DNA of 64,000 bases from Phycisphaerae bacterium (GTDB lineage Bacteria; Planctomycetota; Phycisphaerae; Phycisphaerales; SM1A02): the NCBI GenBank assembly GCA_016873275.1, contig VGXO01000009.1, positions 1 to 64,000 on the forward strand. Direction: 5' to 3'. The position numbers were made by a program, and so were the translations under genes. The notes below the pieces were generated by a model, which was given only the letters and a program-made list of their open reading frames with translations, was not told the DNA's origin and did no database searches. Below are positions 247-49,678 of the stretch, piece after piece. Numbering within the stretch: position 1 is the stretch's first letter; every line of letters begins with the position of its first letter.

Positions 247-2013
247 TTACTTGTGGACCTTCTTCCGCTTTGCCTTCCGCCATGCGTCGAGCGTCCTGGC
301 GTCAAGGCAGTTGAGGCAGCGATCGGGGGTGAGCCCGCCGCGGCGGGCGGTGACCACGCCGTAGCGGAGCTCGTCGAACTGCTCGGGGCTGTGCACGTCG
401 CAGTTGATCGCGATCCAGCAGCCCGCCTCGAGGGCGATCCGCACGTGGCGGTCGCGGAGGTCGAGCCGGTGGTGGTTGGCGTTCACCTCGAGCGCCGTGC
501 CGCACTCCGCCGCCGCCTTCGCGATCGCCTCGATGTCCGGCTCGAGTCCCGGGCGGCTGCCGATGAGGCGACCCGTCGGATGCCCGAGCACGTGGACGAG
601 CGGGTGCCTCACCGCGGCGAGGAGCCGCTCGGTCGCGACCTTCGGATCCTGCCGGAGCGCCACGTGCGGCGACGCGACGACCCAGTCGAGCTCGGCGAGG
701 AGCTCGTCCTCGTAGTCGAGCCGACCATCGGCGAGGATGTCGACCTCGCTGCCGGCGAAGAGCCTGATCCCGTCGAGCCGCGCGTCCGCCTCGCGCACCG
801 CGTCGAGGTGCCGGCGGAGCCGTGCCGGGTCGAGTCCGTTCGCCTGGACGCTCGACCGCGAGTGGTCGGTGATCGCGAGCGTGTGGAAGCCGCGGTCGCG
901 GGCGAGCCTCGCGATCTCCTCGATCGACATCGTGCCGTCGCTGGCGCGGGTGTGGGCGTGGAGCTCGCTCCGGATCGCCTCGACGGTGACGAGCGTCGGG
1001 GTCTTCCGAAGCGAGAGCTCGCCGTGGTCCTCCCGCAGCTCCGGCGGGATCCACGGCAACCCGAGCGCCTCATAGATCTCCTCCTCGCTCGCCGCCGCGA
1101 CCGGCGCGACCCCGCGCGACTGCGGCGGCGAGTCCTCGTCCGCCTCGGCGTGGGGGAAGAGCCCGTACTCGTTCAGGCGGAGTCCCCGCGCGATCGCCCG
1201 CTCGCGGAGCCGCACGTTGTGCTCCTTGCTGCCGGTGAAGTAGAGCCACGCCGCGCCGAAGCAGGAGGAGTCGACGACCCGAAGATCCGCCTGCATCCCG
1301 CTCGCGAGCCGCACCGAGCACTTCGTCTCCCCCGCGGCGAGCACCGACCGCACCTCCGGGTGGCTGCGGAACGCCTCGATGAGTCCCGCCGGATCGCCGC
1401 CGCACGCGAGGAGGTCGAGGTCGCCGATCGTCTCCCGACCCCGCCGCAGGCTGCCCGCCACCTCGACCCGCGCGACGCCCTTTACCGCCCGCAGGTGCCG
1501 CGCGAGCGACTCCGCGACCGGCGCCGCCTCGCCGAGCCGCGCCCGCCCGCCGCTCTTCTCCATGAACTCGAGGCTCTCGCGGATCTTCGCGAGCGTCTTC
1601 TCGCCCATGCGGGGAAGCCCGAGGAGCTCGCCCGACGCGAGCTTCGCCTTGAGGGTCGCGAGGTCGACGACGCCCGCCTCCTTCCAGAGGAGCCGCGCCG
1701 TCTTCGGTCCGAGCCCCGGGACCCGCAGCACCTCCGGCAGTCCCGGCGGCACCTGCTTCCGCAGCGACTCGAGGTCCTTGATCGACCCGCTCGCGAGCCA
1801 CTCGCGGATCCGTCCCGCCGAGCCCTCGCCGATCCCCTCGATCGCCTCGATCGCTCCCGGCTCCCTCCCGAGCGCCTCCACGTCCGCGTCGAGCTCGCCG
1901 AGCACCCGCGCCACCTTCGCATGCGCGCTCACCCGGAACGAGTTCGCCCCCGTCAGCTCGAGCAGCGCCGCCATCTCCTCGAAGAGCGCGGCAAGGGTCG
2001 CGTTCGCGGACAT
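247..2013 (-). CDS. polX: DNA polymerase/3'-5' exonuclease PolX (family X polymerase with PHP domain)
   Basis: 588 residues, the usual length for bacterial PolX. It is a family X gap-filling polymerase with a C-terminal PHP phosphoesterase domain, expected to act in base-excision or end-joining repair. The N-terminal third holds helix-hairpin-helix segments (VPGLGPKTA, LPRMGEKTL). The nucleotidyltransferase core shows GSLRRGRE followed by D198-L-D200, the metal-binding pair. The PHP domain begins near 350 with H352-A-H354, then ITDHS, GSEVDIL, ASPHVAL, LGHPTGR and the final NCDVHSPEQF. I chose the ATG at 2013 because the open frame further upstream encodes only Arg/Pro-rich sequence from a repeat block. 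It sits alone, pointing left, ending in a hairpin near 165-181. Family assignment is secure; the repair role is family knowledge. Confidence 0.93.
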   Translation of the reverse strand: MSANATLAALFEEMAALLELTGANSFRVSAHAKVARVLGELDADVEALGREPGAIEAIEGIGEGSAGRIREWLASGSIKDLESLRKQVPPGLPEVLRVPGLGPKTARLLWKEAGVVDLATLKAKLASGELLGLPRMGEKTLAKIRESLEFMEKSGGRARLGEAAPVAESLARHLRAVKGVARVEVAGSLRRGRETIGDLDLLACGGDPAGLIEAFRSHPEVRSVLAAGETKCSVRLASGMQADLRVVDSSCFGAAWLYFTGSKEHNVRLRERAIARGLRLNEYGLFPHAEADEDSPPQSRGVAPVAAASEEEIYEALGLPWIPPELREDHGELSLRKTPTLVTVEAIRSELHAHTRASDGTMSIEEIARLARDRGFHTLAITDHSRSSVQANGLDPARLRRHLDAVREADARLDGIRLFAGSEVDILADGRLDYEDELLAELDWVVASPHVALRQDPKVATERLLAAVRHPLVHVLGHPTGRLIGSRPGLEPDIEAIAKAAAECGTALEVNANHHRLDLRDRHVRIALEAGCWIAINCDVHSPEQFDELRYGVVTARRGGLTPDRCLNCLDARTLDAWRKAKRKKVHK

Positions 2014-2126
2014 GCCCCGATGGTACGGACCCGCCGCATCGCCGTGGGCGGCGAGGCGCCGGGGATCACGCGCCGGGGGAGCGAGGCGGAGCGGAGTGGT
2101 CACCGCGGCACTCGCGCCTGCGCCCC

Positions 2127-2400: not shown

Positions 2401-2519
2401 CTTCGACGGCAAGTCTTCGGCTCGGTGCGAAGGAGGTCGAGCCTGAGATCGTCGGGCGCGAGCACTCTCGCGTCGATCAAGATCAATCCCAGCCGTACGC
2501 TCGTCTGTACGATCCTTCC

Positions 2520-2972
2520 ATGGCGGAGACGTCCGGGTCTGACACGGCGGACATGGGAGGCGGTCCTGACAGGTGGCAGCGGCTTCGACGCGCGATCACC
2601 GACTTCGCGATCGAACGCGACTGGCAGCAGTTCCACGATCCGAAGAACCTCTCCATGGCGATCGGCGTGGAGGCGGGGGAGTTGATGGATCACTTCCGGT
2701 GGGTTTCGAACGAGAAGTCGATCGCGGTGCTCGAGGATCCGACGAGTCGCTGCGGCGTCGAGGACGAGTCGGCGGACGTGCTGATCCTGCTGATCGAGTT
2801 CGCGGAGACATGCGGAATCGACCTGCTGGCGGCTGCCGAGCGGAAGTTGGCGCGGAACGCCGAGCGCTATCCGGTGGCGCTCGCCAAGGGGCGGGCGGTC
2901 AAGCACGATCGACTCCGCTCGACGTCGTCGGGATCGAGGGCGTCTGACGACCTATCTCCACGCGAGGAATGA
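2520..2972 (+). CDS. MazG-like nucleotide pyrophosphohydrolase
   Basis: 150 residues of the all-alpha NTP pyrophosphohydrolase superfamily (MazG/dCTPase type), which cleaves (d)NTPs to (d)NMP and pyrophosphate. The diagnostic metal-binding pattern is visible: E51-A-G-E54 followed by a helix MDHFRW, then E83-x-x-D86 within VEDESADVLILLIEF. Residues after about 125 are a basic, Ser-rich tail. Start ATG 2520 follows a short promoter-like stretch and excludes an upstream open frame that runs through repeats. The stop TGA (2970-2972) abuts the ATG of the next gene with zero spacing, so the two are surely co-translated. Codon use is less GC-biased than in the housekeeping genes. Its partner is a nuclease-helicase, suggesting a joint accessory or defence role; that role is inferred. 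The family assignment is firm, the exact substrate unknown. Confidence 0.85.
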   Translation: MAETSGSDTADMGGGPDRWQRLRRAITDFAIERDWQQFHDPKNLSMAIGVEAGELMDHFRWVSNEKSIAVLEDPTSRCGVEDESADVLILLIEFAETCGIDLLAAAERKLARNAERYPVALAKGRAVKHDRLRSTSSGSRASDDLSPREE

Positions 2973-5135
2973 ATGCTGCTTGACGTGCAGACCTTCCGGA
3001 GGCGGGCGGCGTACGAGTTGGATCAGCTCGTCGACGATCTCTCGCGGGAGACTCGGCGGTCCACCCCTGCGGAGCGCACGGCGTGGCGATCGTCGTTGCC
3101 GACGCTGGCGCAGGTTCTTGCCAGCCCCTTGCTCGGGGACTTCCACGTCCACCTTGGTCGCCCGGGGGAGCTGGTGGTCGAGTATCGGCTGCCTGCCTCC
3201 ACGGCATGGGCGGACGTGGTGTTGCTTGGGAGGAGCAACGATCGACCGACCGCGGTCGTCGTCGAGCTCAAGGACTGGGACGTCAGTCGCGACTCCTCCG
3301 GCGAGCGAGAGTCGCTCGTTCGTCGTTGGACTGGCGACGAGCTCCATCCTTCAGATCAGGTTCGTGGCTACGTCGAGTACTGCCGACGCTTTCACAGCAC
3401 GGTGCTCGAGCGGACCGCGAGCGTCGATGGATGCGTTTTCTTCACCTACGCTTCGGCCGCAGACGCGTATGTCGCGATGCCCCATCACGACCTCGTTCGG
3501 GACTATCCGGTCTTCGCGAGGAACGCCGACGACGTCGAGTCACGGTTCCCTCGGTACCTCGCCGAGCGGCTCGTGTCGGCCGATGCGGACTTCGCTCGCG
3601 ACTTCGAGCGAGGCGTCTACCTCCAGGATCGCGGCTTCGTTCGGCAGATCTCGACGGCCATCCGTCGCTCGGAGGATCGACCGTTCGTGCTGCTCGATCA
3701 GCAGCGACGCGGCTTCGAGTTGTGCCTTGCGCAGATCGAGCGTCGACTGAAGCCCGCCAAGGCGACCGCCAAGCGAAGGTCTAGCAAGAGCGTGATCGTG
3801 ATCGAGGGACCGCCGGGATCCGGCAAGTCCGTCATCGCGGCCCAGTTGTGGGCCGAACTTGCGGACCGAGAGTCGATTGATGGCAACGTCGTGCTCACCA
3901 CGACCTCGACGGCGCAGCGTTCGAACTGGGAGCAGCTCTTCGAGCGGGTCAGCGGCGCCCGAGCGGCACGAGGGGTCGTCGTGGGGGCGAATCGCTACAA
4001 CCCCGGACTAAACCAGAAGTGGCTGCAGAAGGAGCGGGCGAGCGGGCGACCGACCACGATCGGCTCGTGGCGCGAGAACCTCGATCGCTTCGGTCGGAGC
4101 GTCGAGGGACTCAAGTGTCCAGACGATCAGTTCGCGGTCTCGATCGTCGACGAGGCGCACGCGCTGATCGATCCCACGACGGCGGGACGAGAGGGGATGG
4201 CGGCCTCGGGCTGGATGCTTCATGCCGGTCCGCAGGCATGGCACGTCATGCGGGCGTCGAAGGTCTCGGTGTTTCTCCTGGATCCGGATCAGAGCTATCG
4301 GGATAACGAGACGACCTCGATCGAGCGACTTCAGGCGTTCGCCGAGGAGTTCGGAGCGGACTTCACCCGGATCAGCCTCGAGGGCGCGCAGTTCCGTTGC
4401 GGTGGATCAGCCGAGTACCTCGAGTGGGTGGATCGCTCGCTCGACGTCGAGTCCGACGCGCGGGGCGGCGTCCAGACGAGACCGCCCACGCGATGGCGGC
4501 GAACGCTCGGTGGTCCGTACGAGTTCGAGGTGCTGGGGACGCCCTTTGCTCTCGAGGCATCGCTCCGCCGGCATGAGGCGAGCGGGCGTTCGGTTCGTCT
4601 GCTGGCGAGCTACTCGAGGAAGTGGAGGTCGAAGGGTGTCGCCAATCCTCATCGCCTTCCACCGACGGACCAGGACTTCCGCATCGACGTGAACACGCCG
4701 CAGGGTGTCAAGAGTTGGACGCGGATCTGGAACTACACGCCTGCCGAGGACTACTCGATCTTCATCCAGGCTCCACGGGGAAGTCCCATCTCCTCGGATC
4801 AGTTGTGCGAGGTCGGTTGTCCCTACGTCGTGCGGGGCTTCGACTTCGACTACGTCGGAGTGCTGTGGATGAGCGATCTGGTCTGGCGACGCGACCGATG
4901 GGCGGTGAACCTCGATCAGGTCCATGAATCCGCGTGGCGGCTTGCCGTCTCGGGCGCTCGGAGAGACCGCCCCGGCGCCTTGGCAGAGGTGGTGCGTCGG
5001 CTTCAGCGCGGCTATCGCATCCTGCTCACTCGAGCGATCCGAGGAACCTACGTCTGGTTCGAGGACGACGAGACGCGCGAGCATGTCGAAGACCTGTTGA
5101 GGCAGGATCGCGGCAGTTCCTTGCGATTGCAATGA
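2973..5135 (+). CDS. PD-(D/E)XK nuclease fused to SF1 helicase (DUF2075-type)
   Basis: 720 residues. The N-terminal ~220 carry a restriction-endonuclease-like signature: D81 in WADVVLLG and E98-L-K100 in VVELKDWD, the PD-(D/E)XK spacing. The C-terminal half is a superfamily 1 helicase/ATPase: Walker A GPPGSGKS at 279-286, Walker B with D393-E-A-H396, motif III FLLDPDQSY, a Q-x-R motif (GAQFRC), motif V GFDFDYVGV at 622-630 and motif VI LLTRAIRGTYVWF. This layout matches DUF2075 proteins. It directly follows the MazG-like gene with no gap and is the last gene of that pair. It lacks any obvious DNA-methyltransferase or specificity partner, so it is not a classical restriction system. Codon use includes tct, agg and ttg more freely than core genes, consistent with transfer. 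Function as phage defence is inferred. Confidence 0.85.
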   Translation: MLLDVQTFRRRAAYELDQLVDDLSRETRRSTPAERTAWRSSLPTLAQVLASPLLGDFHVHLGRPGELVVEYRLPASTAWADVVLLGRSNDRPTAVVVELKDWDVSRDSSGERESLVRRWTGDELHPSDQVRGYVEYCRRFHSTVLERTASVDGCVFFTYASAADAYVAMPHHDLVRDYPVFARNADDVESRFPRYLAERLVSADADFARDFERGVYLQDRGFVRQISTAIRRSEDRPFVLLDQQRRGFELCLAQIERRLKPAKATAKRRSSKSVIVIEGPPGSGKSVIAAQLWAELADRESIDGNVVLTTTSTAQRSNWEQLFERVSGARAARGVVVGANRYNPGLNQKWLQKERASGRPTTIGSWRENLDRFGRSVEGLKCPDDQFAVSIVDEAHALIDPTTAGREGMAASGWMLHAGPQAWHVMRASKVSVFLLDPDQSYRDNETTSIERLQAFAEEFGADFTRISLEGAQFRCGGSAEYLEWVDRSLDVESDARGGVQTRPPTRWRRTLGGPYEFEVLGTPFALEASLRRHEASGRSVRLLASYSRKWRSKGVANPHRLPPTDQDFRIDVNTPQGVKSWTRIWNYTPAEDYSIFIQAPRGSPISSDQLCEVGCPYVVRGFDFDYVGVLWMSDLVWRRDRWAVNLDQVHESAWRLAVSGARRDRPGALAEVVRRLQRGYRILLTRAIRGTYVWFEDDETREHVEDLLRQDRGSSLRLQ

Positions 5136-5226: not shown

Positions 5227-5523
5227 CCCCCCCTCACCCCACCTCCACGAGCCCGAGGACGGCGCCATGCCTGCCGAGGACCATGCGGCGGAGACCCTCC
5301 TCGCCGGGGGCGTCGAGCCGCGGGCTCCGCTCGATCCACTCGCGGGCGTCGGCGCGGGCAAGGGCGAGGAGGTCGAGGTCGCGGACGAGGTCGGCGACGC
5401 GGAGCGGCGCGAGCCCCGACTGCCGCGCGCCGAAGAGCTCGCCCGGACCGCGGATCCCAAGGTCGAGCTCGGCGATGCGGAAGCCGTCGTCGGTCGAGGC
5501 GAACGCCTCCATGCGGGCGAGCG
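5227..5523 (-). pseudogene. Detached 3'-end copy of recG (direct repeat, left copy)
   Basis: 5227-5523 matches 7659-7955 base for base over 297 bp with two differences (5267 a/g and 5269 g/a relative to 7699 and 7701; one His/Tyr change plus a silent position). Read on the minus strand it encodes the last ~96 residues of RecG and its TGA (5234-5236). Similarity stops abruptly at 5524 on the inner side and at the poly-C run (5227-5233) just past the stop codon. No start codon or upstream RecG sequence is present, so it is a remnant. Together with the intact recG end it brackets the AbiE pair, as expected for attachment-site-like duplication on insertion; alternatively it records a recombination event. 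Confidence 0.9.
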
Positions 5524-5573
5524 TTCGGAGACATGGGTGGCGCCCGAGTCGCGGGTCTTCTGACGAGGCGTGG

Positions 5574-5602
5574 TTGCTTCTGTTTGCCGAAACACATACA
5601 TT
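5574..5602 (+). promoter_or_regulatory. Possible sigma-70 promoter of the AbiE pair
   Basis: An AT-rich island in otherwise GC-rich DNA. TTGCTT (5574-5579) is followed after 17 bp by TACATT (5597-5602), and the same TACATT hexamer occurs as a plausible -10 before tRNA-Asp. A transcript from here would start about 5609, giving an almost leaderless mRNA from GTG 5612. Matches to consensus are partial, so this is tentative. Confidence 0.3.
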
Positions 5603-5611
5603 TGGGCTCTC

Positions 5612-6481
5612 GTGCGGCACACGAAAGCAACTCCTCCCGCGTCCGGCGCCCACCCCCGCGGCGGGACGCAGGCTCCCGGCCTACAGGTCTTCCTCGCCCG
5701 GCACCCAGTCTTCACCGGCGACGAGCTCGCGCAGTTCCATGAACGCCGCGGCTCGGGCACCCTCGGGACGCTTCGGGTGCTGCTCTCCCGCCAACGAGCC
5801 CGAGGTCGGGTGCTGTCCGTCCGCCGTGGGGTCTACGCGGTGGTGCCCCTCGGCATGGACTCGGAGTCCGCGCCCGTCGATCCCTACCTCGTGGCGTCCC
5901 GGCTCGCCCGCGACTCCGTGCTCGCCTACCACACGGCGCTCGAGCTCCATGGGCACGCCCAGAGCGCGTTCACGCGCTACCAGTTCCTCACCCGCACCGC
6001 GGCGCGGGCGTGCACCTTCCGATCCGCGGTGTTCCAGCCGGTGCGGGTGCCGCGGGCGCTCGCAGGCCGTGGCGGCGACCGCATCGGGGTGCAGACGATG
6101 GACCGCATGGGTCTCGACCTGCGGGTGACCACGCTCGAGAGGACCTGCGTCGACGCGCTCGACCGCCCCGATCTCTGCGGCGGATGGGAGGAGGTCGTCC
6201 GGTCGCTCGAGTCGGTGCCGTCCCTCGACCTCGAGGCGGTGGTCGCCTACGCGCTCCGGCTGCGGTCGGCGACGCTGGCGGCCAAGGTCGGCTGGTTCCT
6301 CGAGCTCAACGCGAAGCGGCTCGACGTGCCCGAACGCGCGATTCGTCGCCTTCGGTCGCGGGCGCCGAAGTCGAGGCAGTACCTCGACCGCGGATCGAGG
6401 CGCGGTCATCGGCTCGCCTCCGGCTGGAACCTGATGCTGCCGACGCCGCTTGCCGAACGACGCTGGAGCGGCGAGGCGTGA
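5612..6481 (+). CDS. abiEi: AbiEi-type antitoxin / transcriptional regulator
   Basis: 289 residues from GTG 5612; a GTG at 5570 would add 14 residues but overlaps the likely promoter. The N-terminal part (FLARHPVFTGDELAQF, then VLSRQ, GRVLSVRRGVYAVVP) is the winged-helix of AbiEi antitoxins, which bind their own promoter. The following DPYLVASRL-ARDSVLAYHTALELHG block is the conserved AbiEi core. The C-terminus is basic (RRLRSRAPKSRQYLD). Its stop TGA overlaps the GTG start of the partner by four bases (GTGA, 6478-6481), the usual toxin-antitoxin coupling. AbiE systems abort phage infection in Streptococcus and related hosts; here the role is inferred from family. The pair is enclosed by recG 3'-end repeats, pointing to acquisition as a cassette. 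Confidence 0.8.
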   Translation: MRHTKATPPASGAHPRGGTQAPGLQVFLARHPVFTGDELAQFHERRGSGTLGTLRVLLSRQRARGRVLSVRRGVYAVVPLGMDSESAPVDPYLVASRLARDSVLAYHTALELHGHAQSAFTRYQFLTRTAARACTFRSAVFQPVRVPRALAGRGGDRIGVQTMDRMGLDLRVTTLERTCVDALDRPDLCGGWEEVVRSLESVPSLDLEAVVAYALRLRSATLAAKVGWFLELNAKRLDVPERAIRRLRSRAPKSRQYLDRGSRRGHRLASGWNLMLPTPLAERRWSGEA

Positions 6482-7446
6482 ACATCTCCCGCGAGCGGCT
6501 CGTGGCGGAGGCCGCGACGCTCTCCTTCCGCCCCGAGCTTCTGGAGAAGGTTGCGCGGCTCCTGTCGCTGCTCGAGGCGCTGCGCCGGCATCCTCGCCTG
6601 AAGGGACGGCTCGCCCTCAAGGGCGGCACGGCGCTCAACCTCTTCTGCTTCGACGTGCCGCGTCTCTCGGTCGACATCGACCTGAACTACATCGGGTCCC
6701 TCGACCGAGAGGACATGCTCGCCGAGCGTCCCGAGCTCGAGCGGGCGATCGACGTCGTCGGGCGGACCGAGGGGATGTCGATCCTCCGGGTCCCCGATGA
6801 GCACGCGGGCGGCAAGTGGCAGCTTCGCTACCAGAGCGCGCTTGGTCAGGCCGGAAACATCGAGATCGACCTGAACTACATGTTCCGGATCCCGCTGTGG
6901 CCGGTCCGACCGACCGACTCGCGCCCGCTCGGGCGATTCACGGCGTCGAGGATCCCGTTGCTCGACATCCACGAGATCGCGGCGGCCAAGCTTGCGGCGC
7001 TCCTGTCGCGTCGGGCAAGCCGCGACCTGTTCGACGCGCACGCGCTGCTGTCGCGCGAGGGCCTTGATGATCGTCGTCTTCGGACGGCGTTCGTCGCCTA
7101 CGGGGCGATGAACCGCGTCGACTGGCGGACGGTCTCGCCGGACGCCGTCGGCTTCGAGGTCGACGAGCTCCGCGAGCAGCTGCTGCCGGTGCTGCGGTCG
7201 ACGGCGTTCCGCGGTGACCGGGAACTGAAGGCGTGGGCAGCGGGGTTGGTCGACGGCTGCAGGAGGGGTCTTGCCAGGCTGCTCCCCTTCACGGCGGCGG
7301 AACGTGAGTTCCTCGACGGGGTTCTCGACCGCGGCGAGGTCAAGGCAGCGCTGCTGACCGATGACGAGGAGCTCGCGCAGCGGATCGCGCTGCAACCTTC
7401 GCTCGCGTGGAAGGTGCAGAACGTGAGGAAGCATTTCGGAAGGTGA
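6478..7446 (+). CDS. abiEii: AbiEii-type nucleotidyltransferase toxin
   Basis: 322 residues, GTG start overlapping the antitoxin stop. It belongs to the DUF1814 / AbiEii nucleotidyltransferase family, type IV toxins that transfer nucleotides to RNA targets such as tRNA acceptor stems. The nucleotidyltransferase signature is intact: K48-G-G-T-A-L53 and D66-I-D68-L-N-Y, with a further acidic segment EIDLNYMFRIPLWPV that supplies the third metal-site region. IPLLDIHEIAAAKLAAL-x3-ASRDLFDAH is the typical downstream block with Lys and Asp. The C-terminus (AWKVQNVRKHFGR) ends 212 bp before the recG repeat begins. All catalytic motifs are present, so the toxin looks functional. The direction is convergent with recG. 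Confidence 0.85.
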   Translation: MNISRERLVAEAATLSFRPELLEKVARLLSLLEALRRHPRLKGRLALKGGTALNLFCFDVPRLSVDIDLNYIGSLDREDMLAERPELERAIDVVGRTEGMSILRVPDEHAGGKWQLRYQSALGQAGNIEIDLNYMFRIPLWPVRPTDSRPLGRFTASRIPLLDIHEIAAAKLAALLSRRASRDLFDAHALLSREGLDDRRLRTAFVAYGAMNRVDWRTVSPDAVGFEVDELREQLLPVLRSTAFRGDRELKAWAAGLVDGCRRGLARLLPFTAAEREFLDGVLDRGEVKAALLTDDEELAQRIALQPSLAWKVQNVRKHFGR

Positions 7447-7658
7447 GCGGCGCGATGCCGCCTTCTCGGCGTGCCGACGGAGCACCGAACGGATGCGGTC
7501 GGCGCGCGTTCTCGGGACCGCGCATGGTGCGGCACGACGCCGCGGGAACGCCCCCTCGGTTCCCGACCGCTTCGACCGTCGGTTCCGCCGGTTGATGGTC
7601 GCCCGATCGCCCTCGCGTGTCGCGCCCGCCGTGCGCCGCAGCCGAGTCGTGGCGGCTT

Positions 7659-7955
7659 CCCCCCCTCACCCCACCTCCACGAGCCCGAGGACGGCGCCGT
7701 ACCTGCCGAGGACCATGCGGCGGAGACCCTCCTCGCCGGGGGCGTCGAGCCGCGGGCTCCGCTCGATCCACTCGCGGGCGTCGGCGCGGGCAAGGGCGAG
7801 GAGGTCGAGGTCGCGGACGAGGTCGGCGACGCGGAGCGGCGCGAGCCCCGACTGCCGCGCGCCGAAGAGCTCGCCCGGACCGCGGATCCCAAGGTCGAGC
7901 TCGGCGATGCGGAAGCCGTCGTCGGTCGAGGCGAACGCCTCCATGCGGGCGAGCG
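7659..7955 (-). repeat. Direct repeat, right copy: 3' end of intact recG
   Basis: Partner of 5227-5523 (offset 2432 bp, same orientation, two mismatches). It covers the final 290 bp of recG including the stop codon (7666-7668) plus seven C residues. The inner boundary with the AbiE segment is the poly-C at 7659. The 2.4-kb distance defines a unit comprising one repeat copy and the AbiE pair. Confidence 0.9.
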
Positions 7956-9768
7956 AGTCGGGCGTGACCGCCTCCGCGATCGCGACGCAGAGCCCGCGGC
8001 GGGTGCTGCGGGCGACGCGACCGCGGAGCTGATGGAGCTGGGCGAGCCCGAACCGCTCGGCGTGCTCGATGACCATGAGCGTCGCGTTCGGCACGTCGAC
8101 TCCCACCTCGATCACCACCGTCGCGACGAGGACGTCGATCTCCCGGCGGCGGAAGCGGTCCATCACGAGGTCGCGCTCCGCCGCGGGCATGCGACCGTGG
8201 AGCCCCTCGACGCGGAGCCCGCGGAAGGCGCCATCGCGCAGGGACGCGAGCCGGCTCGAGACCGCGGCGAGCCCCGCGTCGCCCTCCTCGATCGCCGGCA
8301 CCACCACGTACGCCTGCTCGCCCTGCTCGAGCCGGCGGCGCAGGTAGGCATCGACCTCGTCTCGCCGCGCGGGCGGCACCACCCGCGTCGCGGGAGGCAC
8401 GCGACCGGGCGGCCGGTCGGCGATGGTGGTCACGTCGAGGTCGCCGAGCAGGGTCAGCGAGAGCGTGCGGGGGATCGGCGTCGCGGTCATCACGAGGACG
8501 TGCGGCGAGGTGCCGTCGCGACCGCGGTGGCGGCGGAGCGCCGCCCGCTGCGAGACGCCGAAGCGGTGCTGCTCGTCGATGACGACGAGCCCGAGGTCGT
8601 GGAACGAGATCGACTCGCCGAGGAGGGCGTGCGTGCCGACGACGAGCGCGACCTCGCCGGAGGCGAGCCGCTCGAGCCGCGAGCGCCTCACCGCCGCGGG
8701 AAGACCGCCGACGATCGAGCACACCTCGACCTCGCTCGCGGCGAGGATCGCCCGCAGCACCCGCTCGTGCTGCTCGGCGAGGATCTCGGTGGGGGCGATC
8801 ATCAGCGCCTGCCGACCCGCCGCGGCGGCGAGGAGCATCGCGTGGAGCGCGACCGCGGTCTTCCCCGAGCCGACGTCCCCCTGGAGCAGGCGGTTCATCG
8901 GGAGGTCGCCCGCGAGGTCGGCGGAGATCTCGCGGATCGCGCCCTCCTGCCCGGGGGTGAGCGAGAAGGGAAGCCGCGCCCGGATCCGCGCGTCGATCTC
9001 CGGCGTCAGGGGAAGCCGCGGCGCCCGCGCGAGGCTCCGCAGCTGGTGCCTCCGCATCGCGACGGCAAGCTGCATCACGAGGAGCTCCTCGAAGGCGAGC
9101 CGCCGCCGTGCCCGCGCGGGCTGCGCGAGATCCTCCGGTCGATGCATCGCCCGCAGGCTCTCCGCGAGCCCGAGCAGCTCGCGGCGCCTGCGATACGCCT
9201 CGGGCAGGGTCTCCTCGACGAGGGCAAGCGCCGGCTCGAGCACCGCCTCCACCGCCCGCTCGATGCGGGCGGAGGGAAGGTCCTCCCGCGCCGGATAGAT
9301 CGGGCGGATGCGGCTCGATCGCGCCTCCCGCGGCGCCTCCGCGTCGAGCGGCGTGAAGCGGGGGTTCACCATCTGGAGAAGTTCGCCGTGGCGGCGACCC
9401 TTCCCCTCGGCGAGTCCCTCCTGACCGGGATGCAGCCGCCGGGAGAGCCAGGGCATGTTGAAGAAGGTCAGCAGGACCGAGCCGGTCTCGTCCTCGAGCG
9501 TCGCCTCGACCCGCGTCATCCGACCGCGCCGCGTCCGGACCGCCGCGATCGTCCCGCGCACCGCGAGGTTCGCCCCATCCTGCGCCTCGACGAGCGCCTG
9601 CGCGTCGGCGATGGTGCTCTCCGCCTCCTCGCGCTCGTGCCGCAGCGGATAGTGGTGGAGGAGGTCCTCGACCGAGGAGAGCCCAAGCCCCGCGAGGCGC
9701 GCCGCATCCGGGCGGATCGAGTCGATCGCGTCAAGCGGCGTGGCGAGGGCAAGCGAGGCGAGGGGCAT
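7666..9768 (-). CDS. recG: ATP-dependent DNA helicase RecG
   Basis: 700 residues, close to the usual ~690. RecG remodels stalled replication forks and Holliday junctions. An N-terminal wedge/OB domain (about 60-160) precedes the helicase core: GDVGSGKT with K303 as Walker A, motif II DEQHRFGV, motif III TATPIPRTL, and motif VI QLRGRVARS. The C-terminus ends in the RecG-specific block RIAELDLGIRGPGELFGARQ. I chose ATG 9768 because upstream frame is a 10-bp tandem repeat translated as Ser/Pro-rich sequence. It is divergent from xseA, another DNA-processing gene. Its last 290 bp are duplicated beyond the AbiE pair, so the gene is intact but its downstream context has been rearranged. Confidence 0.95.
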   Translation of the reverse strand: MPLASLALATPLDAIDSIRPDAARLAGLGLSSVEDLLHHYPLRHEREEAESTIADAQALVEAQDGANLAVRGTIAAVRTRRGRMTRVEATLEDETGSVLLTFFNMPWLSRRLHPGQEGLAEGKGRRHGELLQMVNPRFTPLDAEAPREARSSRIRPIYPAREDLPSARIERAVEAVLEPALALVEETLPEAYRRRRELLGLAESLRAMHRPEDLAQPARARRRLAFEELLVMQLAVAMRRHQLRSLARAPRLPLTPEIDARIRARLPFSLTPGQEGAIREISADLAGDLPMNRLLQGDVGSGKTAVALHAMLLAAAAGRQALMIAPTEILAEQHERVLRAILAASEVEVCSIVGGLPAAVRRSRLERLASGEVALVVGTHALLGESISFHDLGLVVIDEQHRFGVSQRAALRRHRGRDGTSPHVLVMTATPIPRTLSLTLLGDLDVTTIADRPPGRVPPATRVVPPARRDEVDAYLRRRLEQGEQAYVVVPAIEEGDAGLAAVSSRLASLRDGAFRGLRVEGLHGRMPAAERDLVMDRFRRREIDVLVATVVIEVGVDVPNATLMVIEHAERFGLAQLHQLRGRVARSTRRGLCVAIAEAVTPDSLARMEAFASTDDGFRIAELDLGIRGPGELFGARQSGLAPLRVADLVRDLDLLALARADAREWIERSPRLDAPGEEGLRRMVLGRYGAVLGLVEVG

Positions 9769-9800
9769 CGACGCGGAGGCAGCGAGAAACGTGGGGCGAG

Positions 9801-9880
9801 GTGAGGAGAGGTGAGGAGAGGTGAGGAGAGGTGAGGAGAGGTGAGGAGAGGTGAGGAGAGTTGAGGAGAGTTGAGGAGAG
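9801..9880. repeat. 10-bp tandem repeat between recG and xseA
   Basis: Six exact copies of gtgaggagag (9801-9860) followed by two copies with g-to-t at the first base (9861-9880), then degenerate gagaagtgag. The period is 10 bp, about one helical turn. The array starts 33 bp upstream of the recG ATG and lies in the 270-bp divergent spacer with xseA, so copy-number change could alter promoter spacing for either gene. No protein-coding role is likely because 10 bp is not a codon multiple. Confidence 0.95.
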
Positions 9881-10038
9881 GAGAAGTGAGAGGACGAAAC
9901 GCAGTCGGGGACGGGAGGAGAGCGCAGGAGCGAAGCAGGGAGCCGGGGGAGCGGAGACGAGCGCACTCGCGCCGAGGATCGTCGATCGAGTGCCCCGCGC
10001 TGCCGGAGGCAACTAGCCTCTGGCTCTACCATACGGTC

Positions 10039-14368: not shown

Positions 14369-14424
14369 TGCTTGTGGACGTGGTGGGGTGGTCTGATCGG
14401 CGATGGTTCGAGCGGGCGCTCGGG

Positions 14425-15683
14425 GACGCTCGTCGCGGGTCGGACCACCCTCACCCGGTTCGCGACCGTTGGTCGCGAACCGGCCTCTCCCGCTCGTCGC
14501 GGTGCTTCTCACGGGAGAGGCGCGGAGTGTTCGGGCACTCTCCCGCTCGTCGCGGCGCTCCTCACGGGAGAGGCGCGGAGTGTTCCGGCACTCTCCCGCT
14601 CGTCGCGGTGCTCCTCACGGGAGAGGCGCGGAGTGTTCCGGCACTCTCCCGCTCGTCGCGTGGCGACGTGCGGGAGCGGTGGCGTGCTCCGGCACTCTCC
14701 CGCGAGCGGAGCTCGCGGGGGAGTCGGACTTCGAGCGCAGCGAGAAGTCCGGTGGGGGTGGTCCGCAGCACGACGAAGCAGAAGGACCGCTGGATCGATG
14801 AGCGATGTTTCGAGTCTTGCGCTCCACGACGCTCGTCGCGGGTCGGACCACCCTCACCCGGTTCGCGACCGTTGGTCGCGAACCGGCCTCTCCCGCTCGT
14901 CGCGGTGCTCCTCACGGGAGAGGCGCGGAGTGTTCCGGCACTCTCCCGCGAGCGGAGCTCGCGGGGGAGTCGGACTTCGAGCGCAGCGAGAAGTCCGGTG
15001 GGGGTGGTCCGCAGCACGACGAAGCAGAAGGACCGCTGGATCGATGAGCGATGTTTCGAGTCTTGCGCTCCACGACGCTCGTCGCGGGTCGGACCACCCT
15101 CACCCGGTTCGCGACCGTTGGTCGCGAACCGGCCTCTCCCGCTCGTCGCGGTGCTCCTCACGGGAGAGGCGCGGAGTGCTCGGGCACTCTCCCGCGCGTC
15201 GCGTGGCGACGTGCGGGATCGGTGGCGTGCTCGGGCACTCTCCCGCGAGCGGAGCTCGCGGGGGAGTCGGACTTCGAGCGCAGCGAGGAGTCCGGTGGGG
15301 GTGGTCCGCAGCACGACGAAGCAGAAGGACCGCTGGATCGATAAGCGATGTTTCGAGTCTTGCGCTCCACGACGCTCGTCGCGGGTCGGACCACCCTCAC
15401 CCGGTTCGCGACCGTTGGTCGCGAACCGGCCTCTCCCGCTCGTCGCGGCGCTCCTCACGGGAGAGGCGAGGAGTGTTCGGGCACTCTCCCGCGCGTCGCG
15501 TGGCTCCTCACGGGAGAGGCGCGGGGTCTTCGGGCACTCTCCCGCTCGTCGCGTGGCGACGTGCGGGAGCGGTGGCGTGCTCGGGCACTCTCCCGCGAGC
15601 GGAGCTCGCGGGGGAGTCGGACTTCGAGCGCAGCGAGAAGTCCGGTGGGGGTGGTCCGCAGCACGACGAAGCAGAAGGACCGC
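14425..15683. repeat. Four-unit array of nested hairpin repeats
   Basis: Four units begin with gacgctcgtcgcgggtcgga at 14425, 14828, 15074 and 15371 (lengths 403, 246, 297 and ~313 bp). Each carries, in order, a perfect 13-bp hairpin (CCGGTTCGCGACC-gtt-GGTCGCGAACCGG), variable numbers of short sub-repeats of the type gctcctcacgggagaggcgc, a hairpin around CTCCCGCGAG/CTCGCGGGGGAG, a hairpin GGACTTC-gagcgcagcga-GAAGTCC, then a constant ~90-bp segment containing ccgcagcacgacgaagcaga. Unit length varies only through the sub-repeats. The array fills the convergent gap between the lipoprotein gene and mlaD and ends seven bases from the mlaD stop. All long open frames here are repeat translations. 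Confidence 0.92.
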
Positions 15684-15690
15684 TCGCCGC

Positions 15691-47910: not shown

Positions 47911-48121
47911 TCGACCGAGAAGCGCGAGGGGATTGTCCGAGAACCGATCTGGCGTCCACCTTTCGCGCGTTGCCCTGCCTCGGTCCTTGACCAACTCGAA
48001 TCCGGAGGCAGGTGTAGAGCTGGTCGTCGAGGACCACGGAGGAAGGCACGGGTCTTTCCTCCGCTCAGGCATCGCCGGCGAGCGTCGTCCGGCATCGAGA
48101 CACCCTTTGGGAGGAGAAGAG

Positions 48122-48739
48122 ATGAATCTGCGCACTCGTGTGGGTCTGCACTTGGCGGCGTGTGCCGCCGCGACCGTCGCCGGCAGCTCGTCGGCGGAGA
48201 TCGTCTGGAGCGGGATCGTCAACCTGAACGTTCCGTCGAACTTCGACGGCGTGTACCTGAACGTGGTGACCGGCGCGACGGCGACGTCGGGCTTCGCTGG
48301 CTACGACGTCAATCCCTACAACTCGAGCACGCTCAGCTGGTTCTCGCCTGCGGCGAGCACCACCGGCGGCTTCGTCCGCGGCGGCGGCTCGAGCGCGACG
48401 CTCGTCGACAACCTGGCGTTCGGCACGGTGATCGGCGCCGGCGCGGCGTTCGCCTATGGCAACGGCGGGTCGGAGTCCACCGGCGCGACGGCGTTCAACC
48501 TGAGCAGCACGCAGAACCTCGTCGGCTTCCGCTTCGTGAACGAGGCGGGCGGCGGCGTCCACTACGGCTGGATGCGGATGGAGATCGGCGCGACCCTGGG
48601 CGGTCAGCCCCGCGCGATCGTCGAGTGGGCGTACGAGAGCGTCGCGGGCGCGACCATCACCGCGGGCACCATCCCGGCGCCCGGCGCGGTGGCGCTGCTC
48701 GGTCTCGCCGGTCTCGCCGGCCGTCGTCGTCGGGCGTGA
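48122..48739 (+). CDS. PEP-CTERM-type secreted protein, copy 1
   Basis: 205 residues. A signal peptide (about 1-25, HLAACAAATVAGSSSA) precedes a beta-rich domain (IVWSGIVNLNVPSNFDGVYL, GFAGYDVNPY, SSTQNLVGFRFVNEAGGG, YGWMRMEIGATLGG) and the C-terminal sorting tail IPAPGAVALLGLAGLAGRRR. The tail is the Phycisphaerae PEP-CTERM form, expected to be processed by an exosortase encoded elsewhere. GGAGGAGAAGAG lies directly upstream of ATG 48122. A second gene at 49061 differs by only six bases. Function unknown; probably an extracellular or cell-surface protein. Confidence 0.9.
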   Translation: MNLRTRVGLHLAACAAATVAGSSSAEIVWSGIVNLNVPSNFDGVYLNVVTGATATSGFAGYDVNPYNSSTLSWFSPAASTTGGFVRGGGSSATLVDNLAFGTVIGAGAAFAYGNGGSESTGATAFNLSSTQNLVGFRFVNEAGGGVHYGWMRMEIGATLGGQPRAIVEWAYESVAGATITAGTIPAPGAVALLGLAGLAGRRRRA

Positions 48740-49060
48740 GTGATCGGCGGGCTCGTCCCGTCCACCACCTCGATGCTGGATGACCTATCTCCACGACCGC
48801 CGGTCCCTCGGGACCGGCGGTCGTGCGTTCGCGGTGGTGGGGGCGTCCGGTCGGGACTCCGGAGCCGGGCGCTGGGACTTTCGGCAGAATTTTTGAGCTC
48901 CGCGGTTGCCCGAATCCCGGCCCGCAGTATGTTCGTGTTGGTCGCCCTCCCAGCGACCGGGTGACGAGGTCTTCCCAACCTCCCACCCTCCCCCTTCCCT
49001 TGCCCCCACCGGACTCTCTCAATCCGCTGGCGGCGAACCTTTTTCCCGAGAGGAGACAAG
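48740..49060. other. Spacer between the two near-identical sorting-tail genes
   Basis: 321 bp with no gene. It contains the hairpin terminator at 48792-48825 and, further on, TTGCCC (48906-48911) and TATGTT (48928-48933) 16 bp apart, a possible promoter giving a ~120-nt leader for copy 2. A short A/T stretch at 48890-48897 precedes it. The sequence shares nothing with the spacer upstream of copy 1 beyond the ribosome-binding site. Confidence 0.5.
48792..48825 (+). terminator. Hairpin terminator after sorting-tail copy 1
   Basis: CACGACCGCCGGTCC (48792-48806), loop CTCG, GGACCGGCGGTCGTG (48811-48825): a perfect 15-bp stem, 52 bp past the stop. There is no T-run. Confidence 0.7.
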
Positions 49061-49678
49061 ATGAATCTGCGCACTCGTGTGGGTCTGCACTTGGCGGCGT
49101 GTGCCGCCGCGACCGTCGCCGGCAGCTCGTCGGCGGCGATCGTCTGGAGCGGGATCGTCAACCTGAACGTTCCGTCGAACATCGACGGCGTGTACCTGAA
49201 CGTGGTGACCGGCGCGACGGCGACGTCGGGCTTCGCTGGCTACGACGTCAATCCCTACGGCTCGAGCACGCTCAACTGGTTCTCGCCTGCGGCGAGCACC
49301 ACCGGCGGCTTCGTCCGCGGCGGCGGCTCGAGCGCGACGCTCGTCGACAACCTGGCGTTCGGCACGGTGATCGGCGCCGGCGCGGCGTTCGCCTATGGCA
49401 ACGGCGGGTCGGAGTCCACCGGCGCGACGGCGTTCAACCTGAGCAGCACGCAGAACCTCGTCGGCTTCCGCTTCGTGAACGAGGCGGGCGGCGGCGTCCA
49501 CTACGGCTGGATGCGGATGGAGATCGGCGCGACCCTGGGCGGTCAGCCCCGCGCGATCGTCGAGTGGGCGTACGAGAGCGTCGCGGGCGCGACCATTACC
49601 GCGGGCACCATCCCGGCGCCCGGCGCGGTGGCGCTGCTCGGTCTCGCCGGTCTCGCCGGCCGTCGTCGTCGGGCGTGA
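49061..49678 (+). CDS. PEP-CTERM-type secreted protein, copy 2
   Basis: 205 residues. It differs from copy 1 at six of 618 bases: four amino-acid changes (Glu to Ala at about 26, Phe to Ile at about 40, Asn to Gly at about 67, Ser to Asn at about 72) and one silent change near the end. All substitutions lie in the N-terminal third. Identity stops at the coding boundaries; the flanks are unrelated. It therefore looks like a very recent gene-sized duplication or gene conversion. Same signal peptide, beta domain and sorting tail. GAGGAGACAAG precedes ATG 49061. It is followed 57 bp later by the first P-domain-like gene. Confidence 0.9.
   Translation: MNLRTRVGLHLAACAAATVAGSSSAAIVWSGIVNLNVPSNIDGVYLNVVTGATATSGFAGYDVNPYGSSTLNWFSPAASTTGGFVRGGGSSATLVDNLAFGTVIGAGAAFAYGNGGSESTGATAFNLSSTQNLVGFRFVNEAGGGVHYGWMRMEIGATLGGQPRAIVEWAYESVAGATITAGTIPAPGAVALLGLAGLAGRRRRA

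Follow-up and report, generated by a model that had tools for sequence, protein, structure and literature searches.

An AbiE gene pair sits inserted just behind recG in a planctomycete genome, and 297 bp of the recG end are repeated beyond the insert (Table 1). The locus lies in a stretch of 64,000 nucleotides (the window) from a draft assembly of 3.23 Mb in 136 contigs. Defence and toxin–antitoxin genes often stand singly at variable spots without a visible mobile element, and their route of arrival is an open question; at this locus the target duplication, still 99% intact, is the scar of the insertion event. Of the possible routes, additive recombination through the recG end is favoured (probability about 0.6); it needs no site-specific recombinase. 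The case looks like one of a known, mechanistically unsettled class, insertion with long target duplication, and not like evidence for a recG-specific element.

Two recG ends around an AbiE pair

Self-comparison of the window yields a direct repeat of 99.3% identity with two mismatches and a spacing of 2,432 bp (E values of 4e-153 and 2e-150 for the copies in a search of the genome itself). The block comprises the last 95 codons of recG, the stop codon and a further 7 bp. Its edges are abrupt, similarity stopping at once on both sides. Intact recG adjoins the AbiE side and the detached end lies beyond; AbiEi and AbiEii are the sole genes between the copies, and no integrase or transposase was found there or among the ORFs checked within 0–14 kb. 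The initial annotation had described this layout, down to the two mismatches, the few bases past the stop codon and the lack of an integrase between the copies, and self-comparison, ORFs and family matches agree with it on each point. Neither a third repeat copy nor a second AbiE copy was found in the genome, and no tRNA lies within 20 kb.

Table 1 Features of the recG–polX region (window coordinates)
Feature	Position	Strand	Basis
polX (DNA polymerase/PHP), on the downstream side of recG in the ancestral order; start placed near 2025	247..2025	-	
MazG-like gene and Schlafen-group-3 helicase gene, further accessory cargo between recG and polX	2493..5135	+	
Detached recG 3′-end copy, two mismatches (Tyr to His codon)	5227..5523	-	Self-comparison
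Insert between the two recG-end copies; 2,135 bp, 70.5% GC, single copy in genome	5524..7658	.	
AbiEi antitoxin gene; start codon uncertain	5570..6481	+	PADLOC AbiEi 3.5e-94; Pfam AbiEi_1
AbiEii nucleotidyltransferase toxin gene	6478..7446	+	PADLOC 2.8e-107; PF08843 4.3e-30
recG 3′ end plus 7 bp, copy attached to the intact gene	7659..7955	-	Self-comparison
recG, intact	7666..9768	-	Start inferred from where homology with relatives begins

The two mismatches fall 2 bp apart in a single recG codon: intact recG has TAC (Tyr), its detached counterpart CAT (His). Most relatives, both congeners included, have Tyr at this position; the change therefore probably arose in the detached copy. The detached end is in frame with a 139-residue minus-strand ORF (5234–5653) that starts inside the insert, and from which a C-terminal RecG fragment could be made. 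The ORF ending at the recG stop codon (7666) runs to 788 residues and is over-long at its 5′ end, RecG homology beginning near 9768. Between recG and xseA lies a tandem repeat with a 10-bp unit, GAGAGGTGAG (9796–9885).

In GC content the insert equals its host, and its ends are free of terminal inverted repeats and of obvious homology. AbiE is a type IV toxin–antitoxin system, and the pair reads as one, its operon joining a predicted antitoxin, AbiEi, to a predicted nucleotidyltransferase toxin, AbiEii. The two genes overlap by 4 bp, the AbiEii translation contains the motifs KGGTALNL and SVDIDL on direct reading, and both genes look intact.

The recG locus in related genomes

The gene order ompA–pilD–xseA/recG–polX is the rule across 20 loci of the family. 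polX follows recG directly in 11 of these (L121, L122, L125–L129, L132, L133, L136 and L137), including the single-contig genomes G011 and G033; the congener locus L119 has a 1.9-kb gap between the two genes, and in the remaining loci polX has moved or is out of reach. No other family genome contains a second strong recG end (181 searched). The initial annotation had pointed to relatives as the place to find an empty site with one recG end, and these loci bear that out. The collection has one genome per species, and the nearest relatives of the source genome are two MAGs; we infer the empty recG site from relatives at ~72% RecG identity.

Neither congener has AbiEii. Of the 180 other genomes in the family, just 2 have strong homologues (59% and 50%), strong meaning at least 50% identity across most of the protein; the best match in the phylum, at 68%, belongs to another family. 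Because AbiEii is patchy in the family and missing from the genus, the source genome very probably acquired AbiE. The insertion is judged recent, since recG–polX adjacency is usual in the family and other genomes have no second recG end, and the scar is judged young from the identity of its two copies.

The distance from recG to polX in the window is 5.6 kb, taken up by a MazG-like gene, a Schlafen-type helicase gene, the detached recG end and AbiE. No repeat was found that belongs to the MazG/Schlafen pair itself, and cargo has therefore entered this gap at least twice. The MazG-like gene is followed directly by the helicase gene, whose N-terminal part has a PD-(D/E)XK-like VVVELKDW stretch. 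The Schlafen gene is as patchy as AbiEii, strong homologues being limited to 5 of the 180 other genomes in the family, and the two genes are a candidate two-gene defence unit.

Further repeats were seen along the window. Short GC-rich repeats (CGAGGCGACGGAGGGGCT..GACGACGGGTTGC) lie at 2125–2430, immediately upstream of polX, where the variable spot has its far boundary, and a perfect 20-bp tandem unit occupies the very start of the contig (1–147). An imperfect GC-rich array adjoins the ompA-like gene (14400–15684), with similar arrays on contigs C4 and C7 of the same genome. A secreted-protein gene with a PEP-CTERM-like C terminus is present in tandem copies (48111–48739 and 49050–49678, 98.7%).

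Parallel cases and recG as a target

Other cargo between two recG ends, a further possibility raised by the initial annotation, turns up outside the phylum, in a Ktedonobacteria MAG (L060, 12089–13659). Its 1.3-kb insert is bracketed by 129 bp of the recG 3′ end, the block ending ~8 bp past the stop codon and its copies again differing by two mismatches 2 bp apart. The insert has 48% GC in a locus of 60–66% and carries a gene for DNA damage-inducible protein D (dinD; NF008573, 1.6e-80) and a small ORF. The original downstream gene (DUF4037) starts 2–3 bp after the detached copy, and removing the insert with one copy gives a plausible recG–DUF4037 junction. The two recG blocks start at different points, 95 residues from the RecG end in the window and 40 in L060 (n = 2).

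A scan of the source genome for bracketing repeats, over 1.79 Mb and then 0.30 Mb more, gave one further case of this form. Here an identical 107-bp block (contig C17, 31663–31769 and 33714–33820) takes in the last part of an HTH/TPR-like regulator gene and the flank downstream of it, and the second copy stands on the other side of a GT41-type glycosyltransferase gene; the neighbours are not conserved, hence no empty site can be inferred. Other close direct repeats in this genome were set aside as tandem arrays, whole-gene tandem copies or IS neighbourhood. In a Phycisphaerales MAG (L041, 6983–7344 and 9998–10344) the 5′ end of recG stands duplicated around 2.7 kb of other sequence, an older case (~83%). 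Parallels to the window number two only, from scans of uneven design, and permit no claim of rate or target preference. Recurrence of the scar in a second phylum suggests that other small cassettes, too, use the route proposed for restriction–modification genes, and the scar can be searched for by its signature, a gene 3′ end left detached beyond the cargo.

As a special hotspot recG was rejected, there being no clear enrichment across 80 recG loci (1.5 Mb). A bracketing repeat at 85% identity or more overlaps recG only in L060, the L041 5′-end repeat stands at 83%, and five loci have repeats elsewhere. A survey of family PF19833 in 392 planctomycete genomes, which misses copies as short as that of L060, found no further full recG duplicate; three genomes (G541, G457 and G525) have three matches each, the extras being weak and on other contigs or far away. 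Each of 5,374 E. coli genomes has a single recG end. Thirteen other loci with AbiE homologues have no gene-end bracket; the repeats that flank AbiE in L175 belong to dispersed elements within transposase-like fragments and do not represent a gene end. Phage and plasmid records searched with the RecG end returned just whole helicases, Mfd-like matches or unannotated records, as far as they are annotated. No paper found names recG as an attachment site, in a literature search that took in few subscription journals.

Routes of insertion and known systems

Under additive recombination, incoming DNA would enter at the 3′ end of recG without any loss, after which the recG end would exist twice. Most economically, this would take a single homologous step within the recG end. 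The partner could be a circle carrying a recG end and AbiE, or a linear fragment with one homologous end, the other being closed without homology (homology-facilitated illegitimate recombination). Differing block starts are expected on this reading, because it invokes no fixed core site. Counting against it are the host-like GC of the AbiE segment, an empty site read from relatives, and the MazG/Schlafen cargo of the same gap, which lacks a repeat; no donor molecule was seen. RecA could later delete the 2.4-kb unit via the direct repeats and restore the empty site. Since AbiE is a type IV toxin–antitoxin system, loss of the unit would be penalised: the toxin would act on loss of the antitoxin, and the pair could thereby hold its own place, stabilising a reversible insertion. 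The recombination route, the direction of transfer, addiction and excision are inferred. The initial annotation had offered three ways to explain the missing integrase (a recombinase acting in trans, one since lost, or a homologous event), and the third fits best.

A non-homologous, replication-based event is unlikely, if the least so of the alternatives. Here AbiE DNA without any recG sequence would have been inserted and the target copied, by a staggered break with fill-in or by template switching. The varying block lengths (297, 129 and 107 bp), at different genes and positions, are what such an event might leave, as are insert ends without terminal inverted repeats or obvious homology; selection for an intact recG would by itself put the boundary after the stop codon. 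Against it, the paired mismatches seen in both recG cases could reflect copies from two alleles, which would favour a donor already equipped with a recG end, although not decisively.

Somewhat less likely still is a site-specific integrative element, CIME-like or satellite-like, that used the recG 3′ end as attB and carried a replacement gene end, its integrase supplied in trans or lost. The prophage e14 and phage 21 integrate in icd in this manner, the gene end being restored. The restored gene and the block ending just past the stop codon agree with such an element, as does a second recG 3′-end case in another phylum. Against it, no recombinase lies between the repeats, and the phage and plasmid records gave no recG end beyond whole helicase genes or Mfd-like matches; the literature search, thin in subscription journals, is likewise silent on a recG att site. 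A recG-specific integrase site is unlikely because the two blocks start at different codons, the 13 AbiE relatives are not bracketed and the 5,374 E. coli genomes have one recG end apiece. Of the mobile element at a gene end seen by the initial annotation, the insertion at the recG 3′ end with that end restored holds; the dedicated element using recG as its attachment site is not supported, and a similar event struck another gene of the same genome.

It is more doubtful again that unrelated phyla share the recG 3′ end as a recurrent landing site, used by small defence or stress cassettes without a recombinase (AbiE; dinD) whose movement depends on homologous recombination through a recG end that they carry themselves. 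Tandem duplication of the recG end with AbiE, followed by deletion of the second AbiE copy, would likewise yield two recG ends, but it calls for two events, the genome has neither a second AbiE copy nor a remnant of one, and we consider it very improbable. Equally improbable is an assembly artefact or a two-strain mixture: in a 136-contig draft the two mismatches could be strain variants, and the assembly alone is not independent proof of the repeat because its 254-bp exact run is longer than a short read, but the copies differ, the junction 5523/5524 must be present in reads, there are no Ns, and the 129-bp case of L060 is shorter than the k-mer (its contig name is in the style of MEGAHIT at k=141).

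The insertion at recG can be set beside several known systems. The cargo itself matches AbiE type IV toxin–antitoxin systems in its AbiEi and AbiEii families, operon order, 4-bp overlap and nucleotidyltransferase motifs, and nothing in the genes is unusual. With the integrase elements of icd the locus shares a restored gene end and a duplicate end on the far side. The same features are shared with SGI1-type islands, which sit at the trmE 3′ end (PMC8409611). Elements at icd and trmE carry an integrase and a fixed core, whereas at the AbiE locus no integrase gene adjoins the putative att site and the would-be core position differs between the two recG cases.

Homology-facilitated illegitimate recombination in natural transformation, as cited in PMC2884548, has been described in Acinetobacter, Pseudomonas stutzeri and pneumococcus transformed in the laboratory. 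On that account, one homologous and one illegitimate end integrate foreign DNA beside a homologous gene, possibly with duplication, as may have happened here.

The closest counterpart is the insertion with long target duplication described for restriction–modification genes in Helicobacter (Nobusato et al. 2000, as reported in PMC1643837 and PMC3031569). In the account of PMC3031569, the target duplications are long and variable, and direct repeats permit amplification by unequal crossing over. In the window, likewise, the target is directly duplicated on both sides of the insert, the uninserted state is single-copy (in family relatives, not conspecifics), and the insert contains AbiEi and AbiEii with no recombinase or transposase. 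As far as these accounts describe them, the two have in common a selfish or addictive gene pair, a long and variable direct target duplication, no recombinase and no loss of target; the present case differs in its type IV toxin–antitoxin cargo, its planctomycete host and an empty state drawn from relatives, not from a strain pair.
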